A DNA stretch of 22,831 nucleotides, from the IMG/VR virus record IMGVR_UViG_3300020446_000086, positions 1-22,831 of that record; one strand, 5' to 3'. Positions 3 through 8,999 of this stretch are shown one piece after another. The stretch's first letter is position 1; each line of letters begins with the position of its first letter. This DNA comes from a virus. The translations under genes were made by a program, and so were the position numbers. The notes beneath the pieces were generated by a model. The model was not told the origin of the DNA. It ran no database searches and saw only the letters and a program-made list of their open reading frames with translations.

Positions 3-797
3 TATAATTATAAACCTCCTACCAATCCTCCAATGAAAGAAGACCCATATTCTGGTGGAATTGGAGAAGACCTACCAGAAGGATATCCTGGAAGATTAAA
101 TAAACCTGGAGAATTTCCTGGATTACCAGCAGATGGTGCAGGTCAGACCCTATTAGATAAATTAAAAGATAAAGCCGATGCTTTTTCACCAGAAAACTTA
201 TTAGAAGATGCTAAGAAAGGACTTGTTGGAGCAGCCGAACGTTTTCTTTCAGATAAATTAAGTGGACTTTTATTAGGTAATGTTTATGGCCTTAATGCTC
301 TATCTACAATACAAGATGCATTTAATGCAGGAGGACTTAACGGACTTAGACAAATAGGTATGGCCGCAGCAGAAGCTTTAAGAAAAGAAAATGATGCTAT
401 CCAAGGAGAAATGGGTGATATGGGATACTCAACATTGCCTGAAATTCCTCTTAGTGCTGAGAATATAATAGAAAATGTTCCAAGCGAAACAGCTTTAGGT
501 AACAATAATATTAATGATGCTAGAAGTGCTCCAGAAGTACCACTTTCGGCAGAAAACATACTACCTAATGCTGCAGCAGAAAGTCCACTAGTAGGCACTC
601 GAATAATTGAAGAATCAGCTCCAGAAACAGCATTATCCCCTGAAAATATATTTCCAGGTCCTGGCGCTCTAGAGCCGCCATTGGCTAATGCAAACGTATA
701 TCCTATTTTACCTTTAGAGCCACCATTAGAACCGGGTCTCAAAGCATGGGAAGATACAGAACCGGAACAGGACTCAGATTTAGGCTCAATTAACTAA
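3..797 (+). CDS. Pro/Ala-rich repeat protein of the tail cluster, 5'-truncated by window edge
   Basis: Function not recognised. The frame is open without a stop from base 3, reading YNYKPPTNPP before the ATG at 33. That ATG has no A-rich leader or Shine-Dalgarno sequence, unlike other starts here, so I read this as the 3' part of a longer gene. The visible protein has a Pro/Gly-rich beginning, then an amphipathic helical stretch (about residues 40-130 counted from the ATG at 33) with Ala/Leu/Lys-rich helices. Residues 136-235 carry degenerate repeats of about 15 residues built on [PA]-L-S-x-E-N-I. The end is acidic. A related SPENLL string occurs earlier, near residue 52. No signal peptide or membrane segment is evident. 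It sits 2 nt before a mini-gene and just upstream of the hub OB-fold gene, so a tail or baseplate role is likely by context only. Confidence 0.7.
   Translation, partial: YNYKPPTNPPMKEDPYSGGIGEDLPEGYPGRLNKPGEFPGLPADGAGQTLLDKLKDKADAFSPENLLEDAKKGLVGAAERFLSDKLSGLLLGNVYGLNALSTIQDAFNAGGLNGLRQIGMAAAEALRKENDAIQGEMGDMGYSTLPEIPLSAENIIENVPSETALGNNNINDARSAPEVPLSAENILPNAAAESPLVGTRIIEESAPETALSPENIFPGPGALEPPLANANVYPILPLEPPLEPGLKAWEDTEPEQDSDLGSIN
438..737 (+). repeat. Degenerate ~15-residue coding repeats ([PA]LSxENI units)
   Basis: Within the first gene, about seven units follow each other, each beginning near Pro/Ala-Glu. Examples are PEIPLSAENI, PSETALGNNN, PEVPLSAENI, AESPLVGTRI, PETALSPENI, LEPPLANANV and PLEPPLEPG. 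Odd and even units look alternately better conserved, so a 30-residue double unit is also a fair reading: PEIPLSAENI and PEVPLSAENI are the closest pair and start 31 residues apart. The DNA copies have diverged, so this is an old protein-level repeat rather than a recent expansion. Confidence 0.6.
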
Positions 798-3239: not shown

Positions 3240-3335
3240 ACACTTTAACCTTTATTAAATATAATAAAAATAATTGACATAAAAAAATCTGGATAAAAAA
3301 AGATATATAATTAACTAACGCTTAAAAAAATAAAA
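3240..3335 (+). promoter_or_regulatory. 96-nt intergenic region with late-promoter-like GATATATAA
   Basis: This is the longest gap in the window and contains no gene. GATATATAA at 3302-3310 is shared exactly with the gaps before the genes at 4583 and 18661. It lies 25 nt before the S1-like start and is followed by the A-rich leader AAAAAAATAAAA directly at the ATG (3336). No GC-rich hairpin that could act as a terminator is visible. Promoter function is inferred from recurrence and position. Confidence 0.4.
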
Positions 3336-4538
3336 ATGATTGAATTAAAAGCAAACGAAGACTTCTTCGATGCCGATGGCAATTTCGACTGGGAAGGATA
3401 TGAAGCAACTTGTCCTAAAATATTAAGAAAACCCAACCCCCACATTAAAGTTAAAGACCCACTCCATAAAGTTTATTGCAGAGAACCTTATGCTCAAGAA
3501 ATGTACAATAAAATGATTGGGCACATGGAAGAAAATGACATTATTAGTGTTATAGAACAGGGTGCCGCCTATGGTGGTAAAGTATATTCAACTAGTAATA
3601 ACATAGCAACTGTTGATATAGGCTATAGACAACTTGTGTTTATTAATCTTGACAAAGAAGATGATAATTTTAAAAATATTACAGATGGGGATGAAGTAGA
3701 AGTTACTATCACATCTAACCCGGATGATGACTCTAAAAATTTAACAGGGTCTATTTCTGAAGGAATGCGAAGAAAGGTATTTAGTGAAATGCATAGTGCT
3801 ATAGAAAATCAAGACTCTGCCTGGTTAGGAAACGTAAAGAAAATGATGGAAGATGCTGGTTATATGGTTAATGTTAAAGGCATTGATTGTTTTATGCCAG
3901 GTAGCCTTGCAGGTATTAATAAACTGCATGATTTTTCAACTGTTTTAGACAAAGAATTATATGTTGTTCCTGTAAGTTATTCAAAAGAAAGAGGAACAAT
4001 TGTTGTTTCTCATCGAGCATATCTTAAAACTTTAATACCTGAAGCTATTAACGAAATCAGAGAAAATATGGACAAAGATGTTAAGGGAACAGTAACAGGA
4101 AGTGCTAAATATGGAGTATTTTGCGAGTTTCATGATTGCTTAACTGGAATGATTCATATTAATGACTTAAATGGTGATTATTTAGCAAGACATAAAAATA
4201 GAGAAATTGCACCTGGAGAAGAAATAGTTTTTAAAATAAAAGATATTATTTCTAACGATAAAATAACACTAACTCAAAAAGACAATGTTGTAGTAAACCC
4301 TTGGAATGATATTCAAAGTAAATATAAAGTTCCTGTAGAAGTTGAAGCAACTGTAAAATCTTGTAAAGATTATGGTTTATTTATTGAAATAGAACCGGGA
4401 GTAGTTGGTTTATTACACGTTAGTGAATTTGAAAACTCAGAAGATATTAAAAATTTCAGTGCAAAAGATATATTAGATGTTATTGTTACCAGAATAGAAC
4501 CTTCAACCAAAAAGATATTTTTAAAGTTACCAAAATAG
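3336..4538 (+). CDS. Ribosomal protein S1-like protein with four S1 (OB-fold) domains
   Basis: Predicted single-stranded RNA-binding protein. After a 65-residue N-terminal extension of unknown role, I read four S1-type units. The first, about residues 66-144 (GKVYS...NIATVDIGYRQLVFI), resembles S1 repeat 1. The second, about 150-230, has VNVKGIDCFMPGSLAG and ends VVSHRAYL, as in S1 repeat 2. The third, about 243-318, has KGTVTGSAKYGVFCEF, then GMIHINDL and KITLTQKD. The fourth, about 331-400, has ATVKSCKDYGLFIEI, GLLHVSEF and KIFLKLPK. Repeats 3 and 4 keep the usual G-x(2,3)-Y/F-G-[VL]-F-x-E and G-[ML]-[IL]-H-[IV] signatures. At 400 residues it is shorter than typical bacterial S1. It stands among structural genes behind its own promoter-like element, so a role in phage translation or RNA handling is more likely than a virion role. 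It could derive from host rpsA. Confidence 0.85.
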   Translation: MIELKANEDFFDADGNFDWEGYEATCPKILRKPNPHIKVKDPLHKVYCREPYAQEMYNKMIGHMEENDIISVIEQGAAYGGKVYSTSNNIATVDIGYRQLVFINLDKEDDNFKNITDGDEVEVTITSNPDDDSKNLTGSISEGMRRKVFSEMHSAIENQDSAWLGNVKKMMEDAGYMVNVKGIDCFMPGSLAGINKLHDFSTVLDKELYVVPVSYSKERGTIVVSHRAYLKTLIPEAINEIRENMDKDVKGTVTGSAKYGVFCEFHDCLTGMIHINDLNGDYLARHKNREIAPGEEIVFKIKDIISNDKITLTQKDNVVVNPWNDIQSKYKVPVEVEATVKSCKDYGLFIEIEPGVVGLLHVSEFENSEDIKNFSAKDILDVIVTRIEPSTKKIFLKLPK

Positions 4539-4582
4539 ATAGTAATTTAATGTGATATATAAATAAATTAATTTAGTGTCAC
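4539..4582 (+). promoter_or_regulatory. T4-type late promoter box before the amidoligase gene
   Basis: This 44-nt gap contains GATATATAAATA at 4554-4565, which includes TATAAATA (4558-4565), the exact T4 late-promoter -10 consensus. The next ATG is 17 nt after the box, so a transcript starting shortly downstream would carry a very short leader. The motif core GATATATAA recurs at 3302 and 18621. There is no TTGACA-like -35 element nearby, in keeping with T4 late promoters, which depend on phage factors instead. Confidence 0.5.
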
Positions 4583-4584
4583 AT
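4550..4584. repeat. Inverted repeat ATGTGA/TCACAT around the promoter box
   Basis: ATGTGA (4550-4555) is the exact reverse complement of TCACAT (4579-4584), with 23 nt between them that hold most of the promoter-like box. The right arm overlaps the AT of the start codon at 4583. Six base pairs with a long AT-rich loop make a weak structure. It could be an operator for a dimeric protein or a chance match. Confidence 0.3.
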
Positions 4585-5899
4585 GCTTACATATCAAATT
4601 ACGAAAGAAAGAAGTAAAGAAGAAATCTTATTAGACTCCTTAGTTGGAGTAGAATTTGAATTCTATTCTGAAAAAGCACCTGAAAAAATAGCAAAAGAGT
4701 TAGGAGCTCTTTTGAAAAAGAAGGTTAGAGTAGAAGACAAGGCACATAGTGATTTTAAACCTACTGACAAAGAGTTTAAAATCGAGCCTGATATGAGCGG
4801 TGGAAAAGGACTGGTAGAGCTTGTCACTGGAGCACTTCCTTATGAAGAGTCTAGATTAATAATAATTAATGTTTTAAATTGGATCGACGTCCACGGTTAC
4901 ACAACAGATAAAAGCTCGATACACTTAAATGTAAGTTTCGATCCAAAGAAAACTGATAAGCCAGGCCTTATTTCTAAAATGGACCCTTTAAGGTTTGTTT
5001 TAGATTTTAATGAAAGAGAAGTTTATAAAATATTTCCTAATAGAAAAGATAGCGTATATGCTAAGTCTATTAAATGGGTGGTACCTAAAATAGAATCAAA
5101 TTATTTTAATGGGTTACATATAAATTCGCACTCTTTTAATTTTGCAAAAGAAAAATATTACGGAGTTAATTTTGAAAAATTAGCAAGTGGTTATTTGGAG
5201 TTTAGATATGTTGGTGGAAAAGACTATCATAAAAAAACTTCAAATATACTTTACCTTTTAGATAGGTTTATTTTACAACTTTGGAATTCAGCAACTGAAT
5301 CTGGGAAGTATAGCGACTTAAACCTTATTGAATTAAAAAGAATTCTAAATAAAAATCATAAATACGTTGATATATTAAAGGACTACAAAAATATTAAAAA
5401 ATATTATAAAGAAGTAGAATTACTTATAGATTTAAAAGACAACGATAAAATAGTTTCTCTATATTGGGATAAAATAAAACATGCTGTTGTAAAATTACTT
5501 AGTCATGGTAGTTTAGAAAAGGGTGTTATAAATTATGATAGTGATTTAGGTAGGGTTCAAGTAAAAGATGGAATATTAAAATTGTGTTATGAATTAGAGG
5601 GCTATGACTTCATAGATTGTGTTGTATCTGGTTCTCTAGAATTTTGTGACTTTTTTAGAAGTGAATTAAAATCTGTCAATATTAAAAGATGTAACTTATA
5701 CCAAAACACGGCGGTTGAAGATTCAAAAGTAGAGTCTTGTTATGTTAACCAAACTTGCCTATTAAAAAACTGTTATGTTTTTCAATGGGACTCTGTTTTT
5801 AAGGGAAGAATGCTTGGTGGAATATTTAGACATGGTCAAATAGGCCCCACTGCTGAATTTGATAAAACAGAAATAATAAATAGTAAAAAAATAAATTAA
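4583..5899 (+). CDS. Amidoligase-like enzyme (glutamine-synthetase-fold ligase family) with C-terminal beta-helix-like tail
   Basis: Putative ATP-dependent carboxylate-amine ligase. The N-terminal 220 residues carry the hallmarks I associate with the putative amidoligase family: GVEFEF (metal-type glutamates 24 and 26), EPDMSGGKGLVELVTG (Glu68, Asp70, Glu79), a helix ending LNWIDVHGY, SSIHLNVSF (His114), GLHINSHSF (His179) and YLEFRYVGG (Glu206, Arg208). Residues about 220-330 are Lys-rich and helical. Residues about 340-415 form short Cys-led turns (DCVVSG, FCDFFR, RCNLYQ, SCYVNQ, NCYVFQ) resembling a pentapeptide or parallel beta-helix fold, which might bind a partner. Family members make peptide-like bonds, and the substrate here is unknown. 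It starts behind its own promoter-like box and ends 1 nt before the neck gene. The family call is from motifs only, without a search. Confidence 0.72.
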   Translation: MLTYQITKERSKEEILLDSLVGVEFEFYSEKAPEKIAKELGALLKKKVRVEDKAHSDFKPTDKEFKIEPDMSGGKGLVELVTGALPYEESRLIIINVLNWIDVHGYTTDKSSIHLNVSFDPKKTDKPGLISKMDPLRFVLDFNEREVYKIFPNRKDSVYAKSIKWVVPKIESNYFNGLHINSHSFNFAKEKYYGVNFEKLASGYLEFRYVGGKDYHKKTSNILYLLDRFILQLWNSATESGKYSDLNLIELKRILNKNHKYVDILKDYKNIKKYYKEVELLIDLKDNDKIVSLYWDKIKHAVVKLLSHGSLEKGVINYDSDLGRVQVKDGILKLCYELEGYDFIDCVVSGSLEFCDFFRSELKSVNIKRCNLYQNTAVEDSKVESCYVNQTCLLKNCYVFQWDSVFKGRMLGGIFRHGQIGPTAEFDKTEIINSKKIN

Positions 5900-6770: not shown

Positions 6771-7127
6771 ATGGAATTGTATATTAATATACCGGGAGAC
6801 CCAAACTATGACCCTAAAATTGTCTCTTCTCAAAATGAGGTAGAGCAACTTAAAACGCAAATAGAAATGATTCTATTTACGAAAAAAGGAGATGTAATGG
6901 GCAATCCTAATTTTGGTGCTAATATAGAAGATTTAATATATGAGTTTAATTTTAATGAAGATAGTTTAAAAAGAGAAATAATGGAGCAGCTTATGAGTTA
7001 TTGTCCTCTTTCAAATAAATATAATGTTAAGGTAGATGTAAAATTTACTAGAGGACTTATAAGAGATGCTGCAAAACTAGAAATTACTATTGATAATAAA
7101 AAGGCAGTAGAAGTTTTAGTAACATAA
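6771..7127 (+). CDS. gp25: Baseplate wedge protein gp25-like
   Basis: Small baseplate wedge protein that, in T4, helps clamp the inner wedge and is related to the sheath-initiating TssE/gpW-gp25 family. At 118 residues it is near the family size (T4 gp25 is 132). The diagnostic stretch is in the middle: IEMILFTKKGDVMGNPNFG followed by ANIEDLIYEFN, which is the family pattern of a helix leading to a G-(E/D)-x(3)-(N/P)-x-F-G-turn. A helix (SLKREIMEQLMSYC) and two closing strands (VKVDVKF, AAKLEITI) follow. GATAAATA (6759-6766), a possible NATAAATA late-promoter box, sits 4 nt before the ATG. The gp6-like gene follows after 18 nt, the standard pairing in contractile phages. Confidence 0.9.
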   Translation: MELYINIPGDPNYDPKIVSSQNEVEQLKTQIEMILFTKKGDVMGNPNFGANIEDLIYEFNFNEDSLKREIMEQLMSYCPLSNKYNVKVDVKFTRGLIRDAAKLEITIDNKKAVEVLVT

Positions 7128-7145: not shown

Positions 7146-8999
7146 ATGGCTGAATTCAAATTCATAGATAGGGCTAGAACAACCGCAGAAAAAATATTAG
7201 AGGATAGTAAAATCTATCTTGGAAGAGTGTATGAAAGGGCTGGGGATTTTTTAACTACAGCATCTCCTTTTACTCAAATTTTAGAGGTGATGGCTGAAAT
7301 CAATGAACTTTTAATGTTCTACATCGAAGATTCTACAGTAGAACAAAACATATATACTGCACAGCATCCAGAATCTATATATGGTTTATCTAGACTAACA
7401 GGTCACGATCCAACCAGAGGGTTTGCCGCAACAGGAGAAGTTAGGTTTAGATGGAAAGCAGGTGTTGTTGAAAATGTAGCTGGTGAAAATTTAATAATTG
7501 CTAAAAATACAAAAATACAATACGATAATAATGGTCAACCCTATTTTTTAAGAACCTCTAAAGATGAGTTTCTTTTACCAAAAACAAGCACTAATTGGAT
7601 ACAGGCTAGTATATGTCAAGGAGAATTACTTAAACAAACAGTTACAGGCACAGGAGAACCTATGCAAAGTTTTAATATAAAAACAAATGGAATGACAGAC
7701 CATTCTGGTTGCAAAGTTTCTGTTAATGGTGAACAATGGACAAAGTTTGATAGTATGTATGAAATGAGACCTACTGACAAGGGTGTATTAATTAAAACAG
7801 GAATAAGCGGTGGAATTGATATTTATTTTGGAACAGGAAATTTTGGAGTTATTCCTCCAGAAGGGTCAACAATAGAATTAGAATATATTAAATGTTCAGG
7901 TGCTGAAGGAAATCTTAATCAATCTGGAGATTTAACATTTACGTTTACAGATAGTGCCTTTGATTCTTTGGGAAATGAATATGACCTTAATGAATTTTTG
8001 GACTCAGAAACAATTGTAACCCCTTTTATGGGAGCAAATGCTGAAAGCCTTGAATTTACAAAAATGATGACGCCGATGGCAAGTAAAAGTTATGTTCTTT
8101 CTAACCCAGATAATTATGAGTATTTTCTGTCTAAATATGCTCAATTCAGTTATTTAGACGTTTATAACACGACAGATGATGGTTATTTAGATGATGATAA
8201 CGTGATGTATATTTTTGCAATTCCAGATTTAGAAAAAAGATTATTAAAAGGTACAGACTATTTTTCGGTTCCTATCGAAGAGTTTTTCTTTAATAAGAGC
8301 GAAACTGATAGGTTCTTGGGGGTAATAGAAGATAGTGGACAACAAATGGTAACAAGTGAAGCATTATTTGTAGAGCCTCAGGCTGTTAAATATAGAATGG
8401 ATATATCTATAAGATGGTTTGAGGGTTTTAAACAAGACGATATTTTTAATGATATTAGAACTGCTATTAGTAATTATTTACTTAAAATAGTTAGAAGAGA
8501 TAAACTGCCGAAGAGTGACATAGTCGCACTTATCGAAGCAGTTCCGGGGGTTGATGCCGTAAATGTTCAATTTGTATCAAGTGTTGAAGAAGAGGCTAGA
8601 AGAAACGGATATTATACATACAAACAAGTGACTGTTACCCCCACAACCCCCGAGCTAGAAGGAGGCGAAGGAGAACAAAAAAGACTTGTATTCTTTAAAA
8701 GAATTGAAGAGATTAAAAAAGTAACACTTGACAGACCAGAAATGTTAATTCCGGTAAGCGGTGAACAGTCTGTAAAAGATTGGTACAATAAAATAGGATT
8801 GGATAAATACGGAGATATTATTTTGGACAAAGAAGAGGTTGCCGTGTTCAGAGGAGGTTGGGAAGACCGAAACGGAGATTTAGTAAAAGATGAACCTTCC
8901 GTTGGAGAAATGGCTTCTTTATCTATTTACTTTGATAACCCTCCTGTTCCTCAAACAATTTATAGTAGAATTCAATCAGGAAATAGAAGAGCATTATAA
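7146..8999 (+). CDS. gp6: Baseplate wedge protein gp6-like (baseplate J family)
   Basis: Main structural protein of the inner baseplate ring. It is 617 residues long, compared with 660 for T4 gp6. The N-terminal helical part (about residues 5-90, with TASPFTQILEVMAEINELL and a SRLTGHDPTRGFAATGEV turn) is characteristic of the gp6/J family. Beta domains follow. At about residues 400-480 comes the usual C-terminal core: a VEPQAVKYRMDISIRWFEG strand pair, a helix IFNDIRTAISNYL, then KSDIVALIEAVPGVDAVNV. The last 130 residues are a charged extension ending NPPVPQTIYSRIQSGNRRAL. The start has the A-rich leader AAAAAATAAAA directly upstream (7135-7145). Its stop overlaps the next start by 1 nt (TAATG). 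Confidence 0.9.
   Translation: MAEFKFIDRARTTAEKILEDSKIYLGRVYERAGDFLTTASPFTQILEVMAEINELLMFYIEDSTVEQNIYTAQHPESIYGLSRLTGHDPTRGFAATGEVRFRWKAGVVENVAGENLIIAKNTKIQYDNNGQPYFLRTSKDEFLLPKTSTNWIQASICQGELLKQTVTGTGEPMQSFNIKTNGMTDHSGCKVSVNGEQWTKFDSMYEMRPTDKGVLIKTGISGGIDIYFGTGNFGVIPPEGSTIELEYIKCSGAEGNLNQSGDLTFTFTDSAFDSLGNEYDLNEFLDSETIVTPFMGANAESLEFTKMMTPMASKSYVLSNPDNYEYFLSKYAQFSYLDVYNTTDDGYLDDDNVMYIFAIPDLEKRLLKGTDYFSVPIEEFFFNKSETDRFLGVIEDSGQQMVTSEALFVEPQAVKYRMDISIRWFEGFKQDDIFNDIRTAISNYLLKIVRRDKLPKSDIVALIEAVPGVDAVNVQFVSSVEEEARRNGYYTYKQVTVTPTTPELEGGEGEQKRLVFFKRIEEIKKVTLDRPEMLIPVSGEQSVKDWYNKIGLDKYGDIILDKEEVAVFRGGWEDRNGDLVKDEPSVGEMASLSIYFDNPPVPQTIYSRIQSGNRRAL

Follow-up and report, generated by a model that had tools for sequence, protein, structure and literature searches.

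What would an enzyme that resembles amide-forming ligases do among the structural genes of a contractile-tailed phage? The question is raised by a stretch of viral DNA of 22,831 bases, which was analysed as a whole and is called the window here; its source record is itself a virus record. An open reading frame within it had been described in the initial annotation as an amidoligase-like enzyme in a virion gene cluster. The gene and its two domains are the following.

4583 to 5899, + strand: two-domain amidoligase gene, an intact ORF of 438 aa with an ATG start
4616 to 5302, + strand: GS-fold amidoligase (PF12224-type) catalytic domain, residues 12-240 (AF2 pLDDT 92; VIA-align Z 12.0 and 12.6 to 4bax; the Atu_ph07 homologue passes PF12224)
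5522 to 5890, + strand: pentapeptide-repeat (beta) solenoid, residues 314-436 (AF2, Foldseek, PF13599 and a periodicity test)

The ORF is confirmed as a real gene, and not a chance one, by its relatives in IMG/VR, by a dN far below dS and by its invariant residues. Compared with the closest relative, dN is 0.22 and dS about 2, and both domains are under purifying selection (dN/dS, own code). In IMG/VR one scan confirmed 189 related stretches, and a second yielded at least 555. Among 50,697 phage records searched by tblastn there are eight, namely six uncultured huge-phage records (462-735 kb) and two records of Agrobacterium phage Atu_ph07. Thirteen large phage records hold one full-length family copy each, while Atu_ph07 holds the N-domain. 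Short peptide patterns, which may miss distant relatives, found no close cellular one among 84,980 prokaryote species, each represented by a single genome. The public records of 634-735 kb with the ligase are five, two of which are equally long and perhaps represent one genome twice. A study of huge phages (PMC7162821) has five genomes above 634 kb, all Mahaphages with predicted Bacteroidetes hosts. The word amidoligase is absent from that huge-phage paper (PMC7162821), and in a jumbo-phage review it occurs in the reference list only.

The fold of the protein was predicted by AlphaFold2 from a 71-sequence alignment of the window protein and IMG/VR loci, with a mean pLDDT of 92.4 and pTM of 0.87 for the full protein, and 92.0 and 0.89 for the N-domain alone. 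The top structural matches of the model in Foldseek and VIA-align are glutamine synthetases; GCS, PafA/Dop and YbdK are absent among the best 50 matches listed by the two programs. In VIA-align the full model aligns to 4bax with Z 12.0 and rmsd 3.3 over 182 residues (model 10-241), and the N-domain model with Z 12.6 and rmsd 3.3 over 177 residues. In glutamine synthetase the strands follow the order ExE, acidic pair, His strand and ExR strand. The family has the same succession, its third strand carrying His/Asn, and this agrees with the ranges of the structural alignment, in which E. coli GS 112-399 is paired with residues 4-302 of the N-domain model. The predicted fold is therefore the glutamine synthetase one and not an unrelated one, as the initial annotation had expected of an amidoligase.

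Sequence profiles lead to the same family by way of the relatives. The window protein has no amidoligase match in Pfam, PHROGs or NCBIfam, no Pfam match of any kind, and none to PF12224 even at E 10. The PF12224 search that had been proposed earlier thus leaves the protein itself unmatched, but it does recover 21 of its 71 relatives at E<=1 (best 1.3e-8) and the Atu_ph07 homologue, AUZ94978. The latter is reached by the family profile at E 1.5e-21, and hhalign gives probabilities of 97.6% and 98.1% between the family and this PF12224-positive protein. As relatives match PF12224 and the Atu_ph07 homologue exceeds its cut-off, the family is Amidoligase_2 by homology. Searches of PDB sequences (phmmer and profile) returned no match for the N-domain and weak pentapeptide matches for the C-domain, and the family profile showed no link to E. 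coli GlnA, the one GlnA sequence compared (hhalign probability 0.8%). Among the viral models of BFVD, an uncharacterized full-length protein is the best match (TM 0.87), and next come phage proteins named ‘Amidoligase enzyme’, including that of Atu_ph07. The assignment to the GS-fold amidoligase family is almost certain, and it stands via the relatives rather than on the window protein alone.

Whether the enzyme may be active depends on its catalytic residues, the conservation of which was scored over 71 non-redundant members, down to 29% identity. The motifs quoted in the initial annotation are all found in the ORF: GVEFEF (residues 22-27), EPDMS (68-72), VELVTG (78-83), IHLNVSF (113-119), GLHINSHSF (177-185) and LEFRYVGG (205-212). 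The conserved segments are as below.

4646 to 4663, + strand: GVEFEF, strand 1, with Glu24 and Glu26, the expected Mg/ATP ligands (invariant, 71/71)
4778 to 4831, + strand: KIEPDMSGGKGLVELVTG, with Asp70, Ser72 and Glu79 (invariant, 71/71; Glu68 in 68/71)
4916 to 4939, + strand: SIHLNVSF, with His114 and Asn116 (67/71; Q/S in four members)
5012 to 5059, + strand: Glu144, Arg154 and Tyr159 (invariant, 71/71)
5153 to 5170, + strand: KYYGVN, with Lys191, Tyr192, Gly194 and Asn196 (invariant, 71/71)
5195 to 5218, + strand: LEFRYVGG, with Glu206 and Arg208 (invariant, 71/71)

The residues that are the same in all 71 members are G22, E24, E26, D70, S72, E79, E144, R154, Y159, K191, Y192, G194, N196, E206, R208 and G211. 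They include every key residue named beforehand (Glu24, Glu26, Glu79, Glu206 and Arg208). Of the two histidine strings that had been proposed, IHLNVSF holds (H114 and N116 in 67 of the 71), whereas the histidines of GLHINSHSF vary even in close relatives, so that it is not a motif. Judged from this residue pattern, the ligase is very probably catalytically active.

The second domain is an addition to the initial annotation, which had not seen it. In the AF2 model it forms a solenoid of short strands (pLDDT ~97), and its Foldseek matches are the pentapeptide structures 6fls, 2xt4, 2xtw and 2bm4. The C-terminal domain of the window protein has no Pfam match; across the family PF13599 is found in 50 of the 71 members at E<=1 (best 1.7e-7), and a five-residue periodicity is detected in 70 of the 71 (shuffle test, p<0.05). 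Pentapeptide repeats serve elsewhere as docking or DNA-mimic surfaces.

The other genes in the window are those of a contractile-tailed phage, and the features around the ligase are the following.

961 to 1656: baseplate spike/hub OB-fold protein
3336 to 4538, + strand: S1-like protein (ribosomal protein S1, multiple S1 domains; NCBIfam S1 models to 8.5e-45)
4555 to 4565, + strand: promoter-like element ATATATAAATA, 18-28 bases before the ligase start codon
5901 to 6752, + strand: neck / head-tail adaptor (Ad2-like; phrog_211 at 1.2e-13, with matches to annotated Tenacibaculum phage neck proteins)
6771 to 7127, + strand: gp25-like sheath initiator
7146 to 8999, + strand: gp6-like baseplate wedge

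The neck gene begins 1 base past the ligase stop, and the large proteins encoded downstream of the gp6-like gene are probably tail or fibres. Across 91 loci of the clade to which the window belongs, the genes run hub/spike, S1-like, ligase, neck, gp25, gp6 and tail. Many huge phages have this block rearranged, with part of it on the opposite strand, and tail genes still lie within a few kb of the ligase (e.g. L084, L086, L108, L135, L142 and L149); no recognised tail gene was found within 8 kb of it in L087, from a 735-kb phage. Pairs of loci with more similar ligases also have more similar neck, gp25 and gp6 proteins (Spearman 0.90-0.91), which implies that the ligase has been inherited with the virion block and is not a passing cargo. 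The placement in a virion gene cluster that had been noted at the outset is right and also old, as the tail/baseplate/neck linkage survives the rearrangements. The ligase is, nevertheless, not required for such virions, since no copy is detectable in two Lak phages, PTm1, PAU, pT24 and MA9V-1, whose neck proteins are the nearest among named isolates and MAGs, by a profile that finds 14 of 14 ligase-bearing large records.

Several other proteins stand out in these loci. A conserved tail-region protein (window 33-797; L083 1661-3340) has a C-terminal half made of a degenerate repeat (ETALSPENIFPG..., DGTLNHGSINNENVYN). In 45 huge-phage loci (e.g. L105 9411-11045) the ligase has a DHH-phosphoesterase-like protein nearby, often one with an N-terminus that resembles the T4-type capsid targeting sequence (CTS). 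Similarly, proteins with many KxTxxERYGVDxxxK-like units are often found near the ligase in huge phages (L083 11062-12267, L087 9334-10122 and L098 12345-13436) and look like homing-endonuclease-type insertions.

The element before the ligase is of a recurrent kind. In 22 of 24 and in 42 of 47 non-redundant loci (64 of 71 together) ATATATA stands in the 60 bp before the ligase start, against 2-3% of 60-bp windows at large, and this enrichment suggests that the ligase may have a promoter of its own. The same heptamer precedes S1 in 21 of 23 loci, gp25 in 13 of 21 and one tail-region gene in 28 of 29, and is a candidate for a promoter class of these phages, set shortly before selected virion genes. 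In the window it occurs at 3303, 4555 and 18622 on the + strand. The exact T4 late-promoter box TATAAATA was also considered; it is present upstream of the ligase in the window, in its nearest relatives and in a few others, but with five copies in the window against 5.5 expected it is uninformative by itself. Action in the late phase is reasonably probable, a timing read from gene context only. The promoter-like element within the tail/neck block makes late action on a late phage product the most likely course.

Taken together, the favoured reading is that of a carboxylate-amine ligase, dependent on ATP and Mg and specific to phages, which is active and serves late in infection, when virions are assembled, a composite for which the balance tips slightly in favour. 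The N-terminal GS-fold domain (~12-240) would bind MgATP via Glu24, Glu26, Glu79 and their neighbours and, as expected from the family, would phosphorylate a carboxylate that is then attacked by an amine to give an amide or isopeptide bond. The C-terminal solenoid probably docks the substrate or dimerises the enzyme. The target would most likely be something that the phage makes late, for example a protein of the tail, the neck or another part of the virion; that a virion protein in particular is the substrate is possible and is proposed tentatively. The initial annotation had offered a Lys-rich 95-residue neighbour as one candidate, which finds no support as a general target: the public phages contain a single weak match to it, though the ligase occurs in five further huge-phage records among them.

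The family relationship itself brings in another role. The ligase belongs to the same family as the amidoligases of phiEco32/LUZ24-type podoviruses, and by analogy with them it might alter the side-chain peptides of peptidoglycan and so block superinfection; a cell-wall role has been proposed for phage amidoligases (PMC10580990, PMC5498523). The podovirus enzymes are part of a cassette of amidoligase, GATase, ATP-grasp, second ligase and cyclotransferase, which are early genes in UFV-P2 (PMC3890496, PMC5498523), and this peptidoglycan-modification cassette is proposed to block superinfection (PMC3890496, PMC5498523, PMC10580990). The ligase described here is not in such a setting. GATase_6 (PF13522) is found in 0 of the 14 large ligase-bearing records, where positive controls were detected in 14 of 14, and with this partner missing throughout the podovirus arrangement is not what these phages carry; the second amidoligase (PF14395) also scored 0 of 14, with a control that was equally empty. 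GGACT-type gamma-glutamylamine cyclotransferase genes do occur somewhere in 6 of the 14 large records (those of L084, L086, L087, L100, L135 and L160), which would suit a cell-wall role, but they lie far from the ligase. As the ligase gene also sits among virion genes and carries a solenoid, modification of the cell wall would appear unlikely.

The position of the gene can likewise be read in other ways. RimK modifies ribosomal protein S6. In a comparable manner the ligase could tag a ribosomal protein, be it S1 of the phage or of the host or a different one, and thereby steer late translation. The S1-like gene is directly upstream of it in the window's clade (91 loci), both genes have the same promoter-like element, and, with Atu_ph07 set aside, 11 of the remaining 13 large records also have an S1 homologue. 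Yet S1 is tens to hundreds of kb away in the huge phages except LR756500, Lak phages have S1 and no detectable ligase, and in Atu_ph07 the ligase domain is present but S1 finds no match, so that this target is improbable. The phage S1 homologue is, in its own right, a gene inside the baseplate/neck block of the window, with homologues in 11 of the 14 large records and in the Lak phages. There is just as little probability in a ligase that is packaged in the virion, ejected with the DNA and acts, as infection begins, on proteins of the host. The N-termini of huge-phage ligases (MKKYSEKFIHE, MRKYSEKFLND) do resemble the T4-type CTS; such N-termini occur in 45 of 817 huge-phage ORFs, several ligases included, against 17 of 3280 internal Met controls, and residues 1-6 of the window model are predicted to be disordered. 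The window and its marine relatives, however, lack a CTS-like N-terminus (0 of 300 ORFs), and the pattern was defined with the data already in view. T4-like CTS are seen on many unrelated huge-phage proteins (MKYILEYEEFLLEN, MKKYGEFINES, MLKRYAEFINEEA), with examples at L083 6931-7314 (-) and 12271-16944, at L087 179-4536 (-) and 5505-6497, and in L100, L112, L119 and others; these N-termini suggest that huge phages may have a large set of head-packaged proteins. A dead GS-fold protein that is retained for virion structure or assembly would also suit a gene among structural genes, and His114/Asn116 are lost in four members. A scaffold would not need the acidic/Arg/Lys set, which is invariant down to 29% identity, and this explanation is very improbable indeed.

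The reading as an active ligase of the late, virion-assembly phase can be extended, speculatively and with rather low probability, to a self-contained protein-tagging enzyme of huge phages, in which a GS-fold ligase is aimed by its solenoid at one partner and made with the virion. In the largest phages it would perhaps be packaged by a CTS and ejected, and virion or host proteins would have amino acids or peptides attached to them. The ligase is kept intact in hundreds of contigs of environmental phages and in the five public records of 634-735 kb. Modification of virion or host proteins by it, if real, would represent a kind of covalent change so far uncharted in the largest phages, with a well-defined active site and a definite knock-out prediction. 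Assays have a concrete starting point in the alignment of the family, in the absence of the GATase partner and in the added solenoid. The enzyme class is already known; what is new here is its fusion to a pentapeptide solenoid, its setting in the virion block and how widely it occurs in the largest phages.

Known systems resemble the ligase to different degrees. AlbG, QnrB1, MfpA and the C. botulinum PRP share the solenoid fold and five-residue period of its C-domain, but the solenoid here has only ~120 residues and is fused to a ligase, and gyrase binding is without support. The LUZ24/tf/phiEco32-type podovirus amidoligases are of the same Pfam family (PF12224) with a GS-like fold; they differ in being encoded with GATase, ATP-grasp and a second ligase, whereas the present family is without GATase_6 in the 14 large records, and a pentapeptide solenoid is unreported in their published descriptions (PMC3890496, PMC5498523). 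The likeness to GlnA (4bax, 8fbp, 8pvg) lies in the fold and in the order of the conserved strands (Z 12-12.6, rmsd 3.3 over 177-182 residues), at 9-18% identity; only the catalytic domain is matched, and the ligase adds the C-terminal solenoid. Atu_ph07 AUZ94978.1 (A0A2L0UZM1, ‘Amidoligase enzyme’ in UniProt) contains a homologous GS-fold domain with the same motifs; it scores 30.2 bits against PF12224 (22-bit cut-off) and is encoded within one gene of the portal gene, but has a large insert after GFEFE, 23% identity and no pentapeptide-repeat domain. Finally, A0A6J5PQ40 of an uncultured Caudovirales phage (BFVD/UniProt, uncharacterized, 439 aa) has the same fold over its whole length (TM 0.87) at 24% identity, and this whole-length match implies the same two-domain plan.
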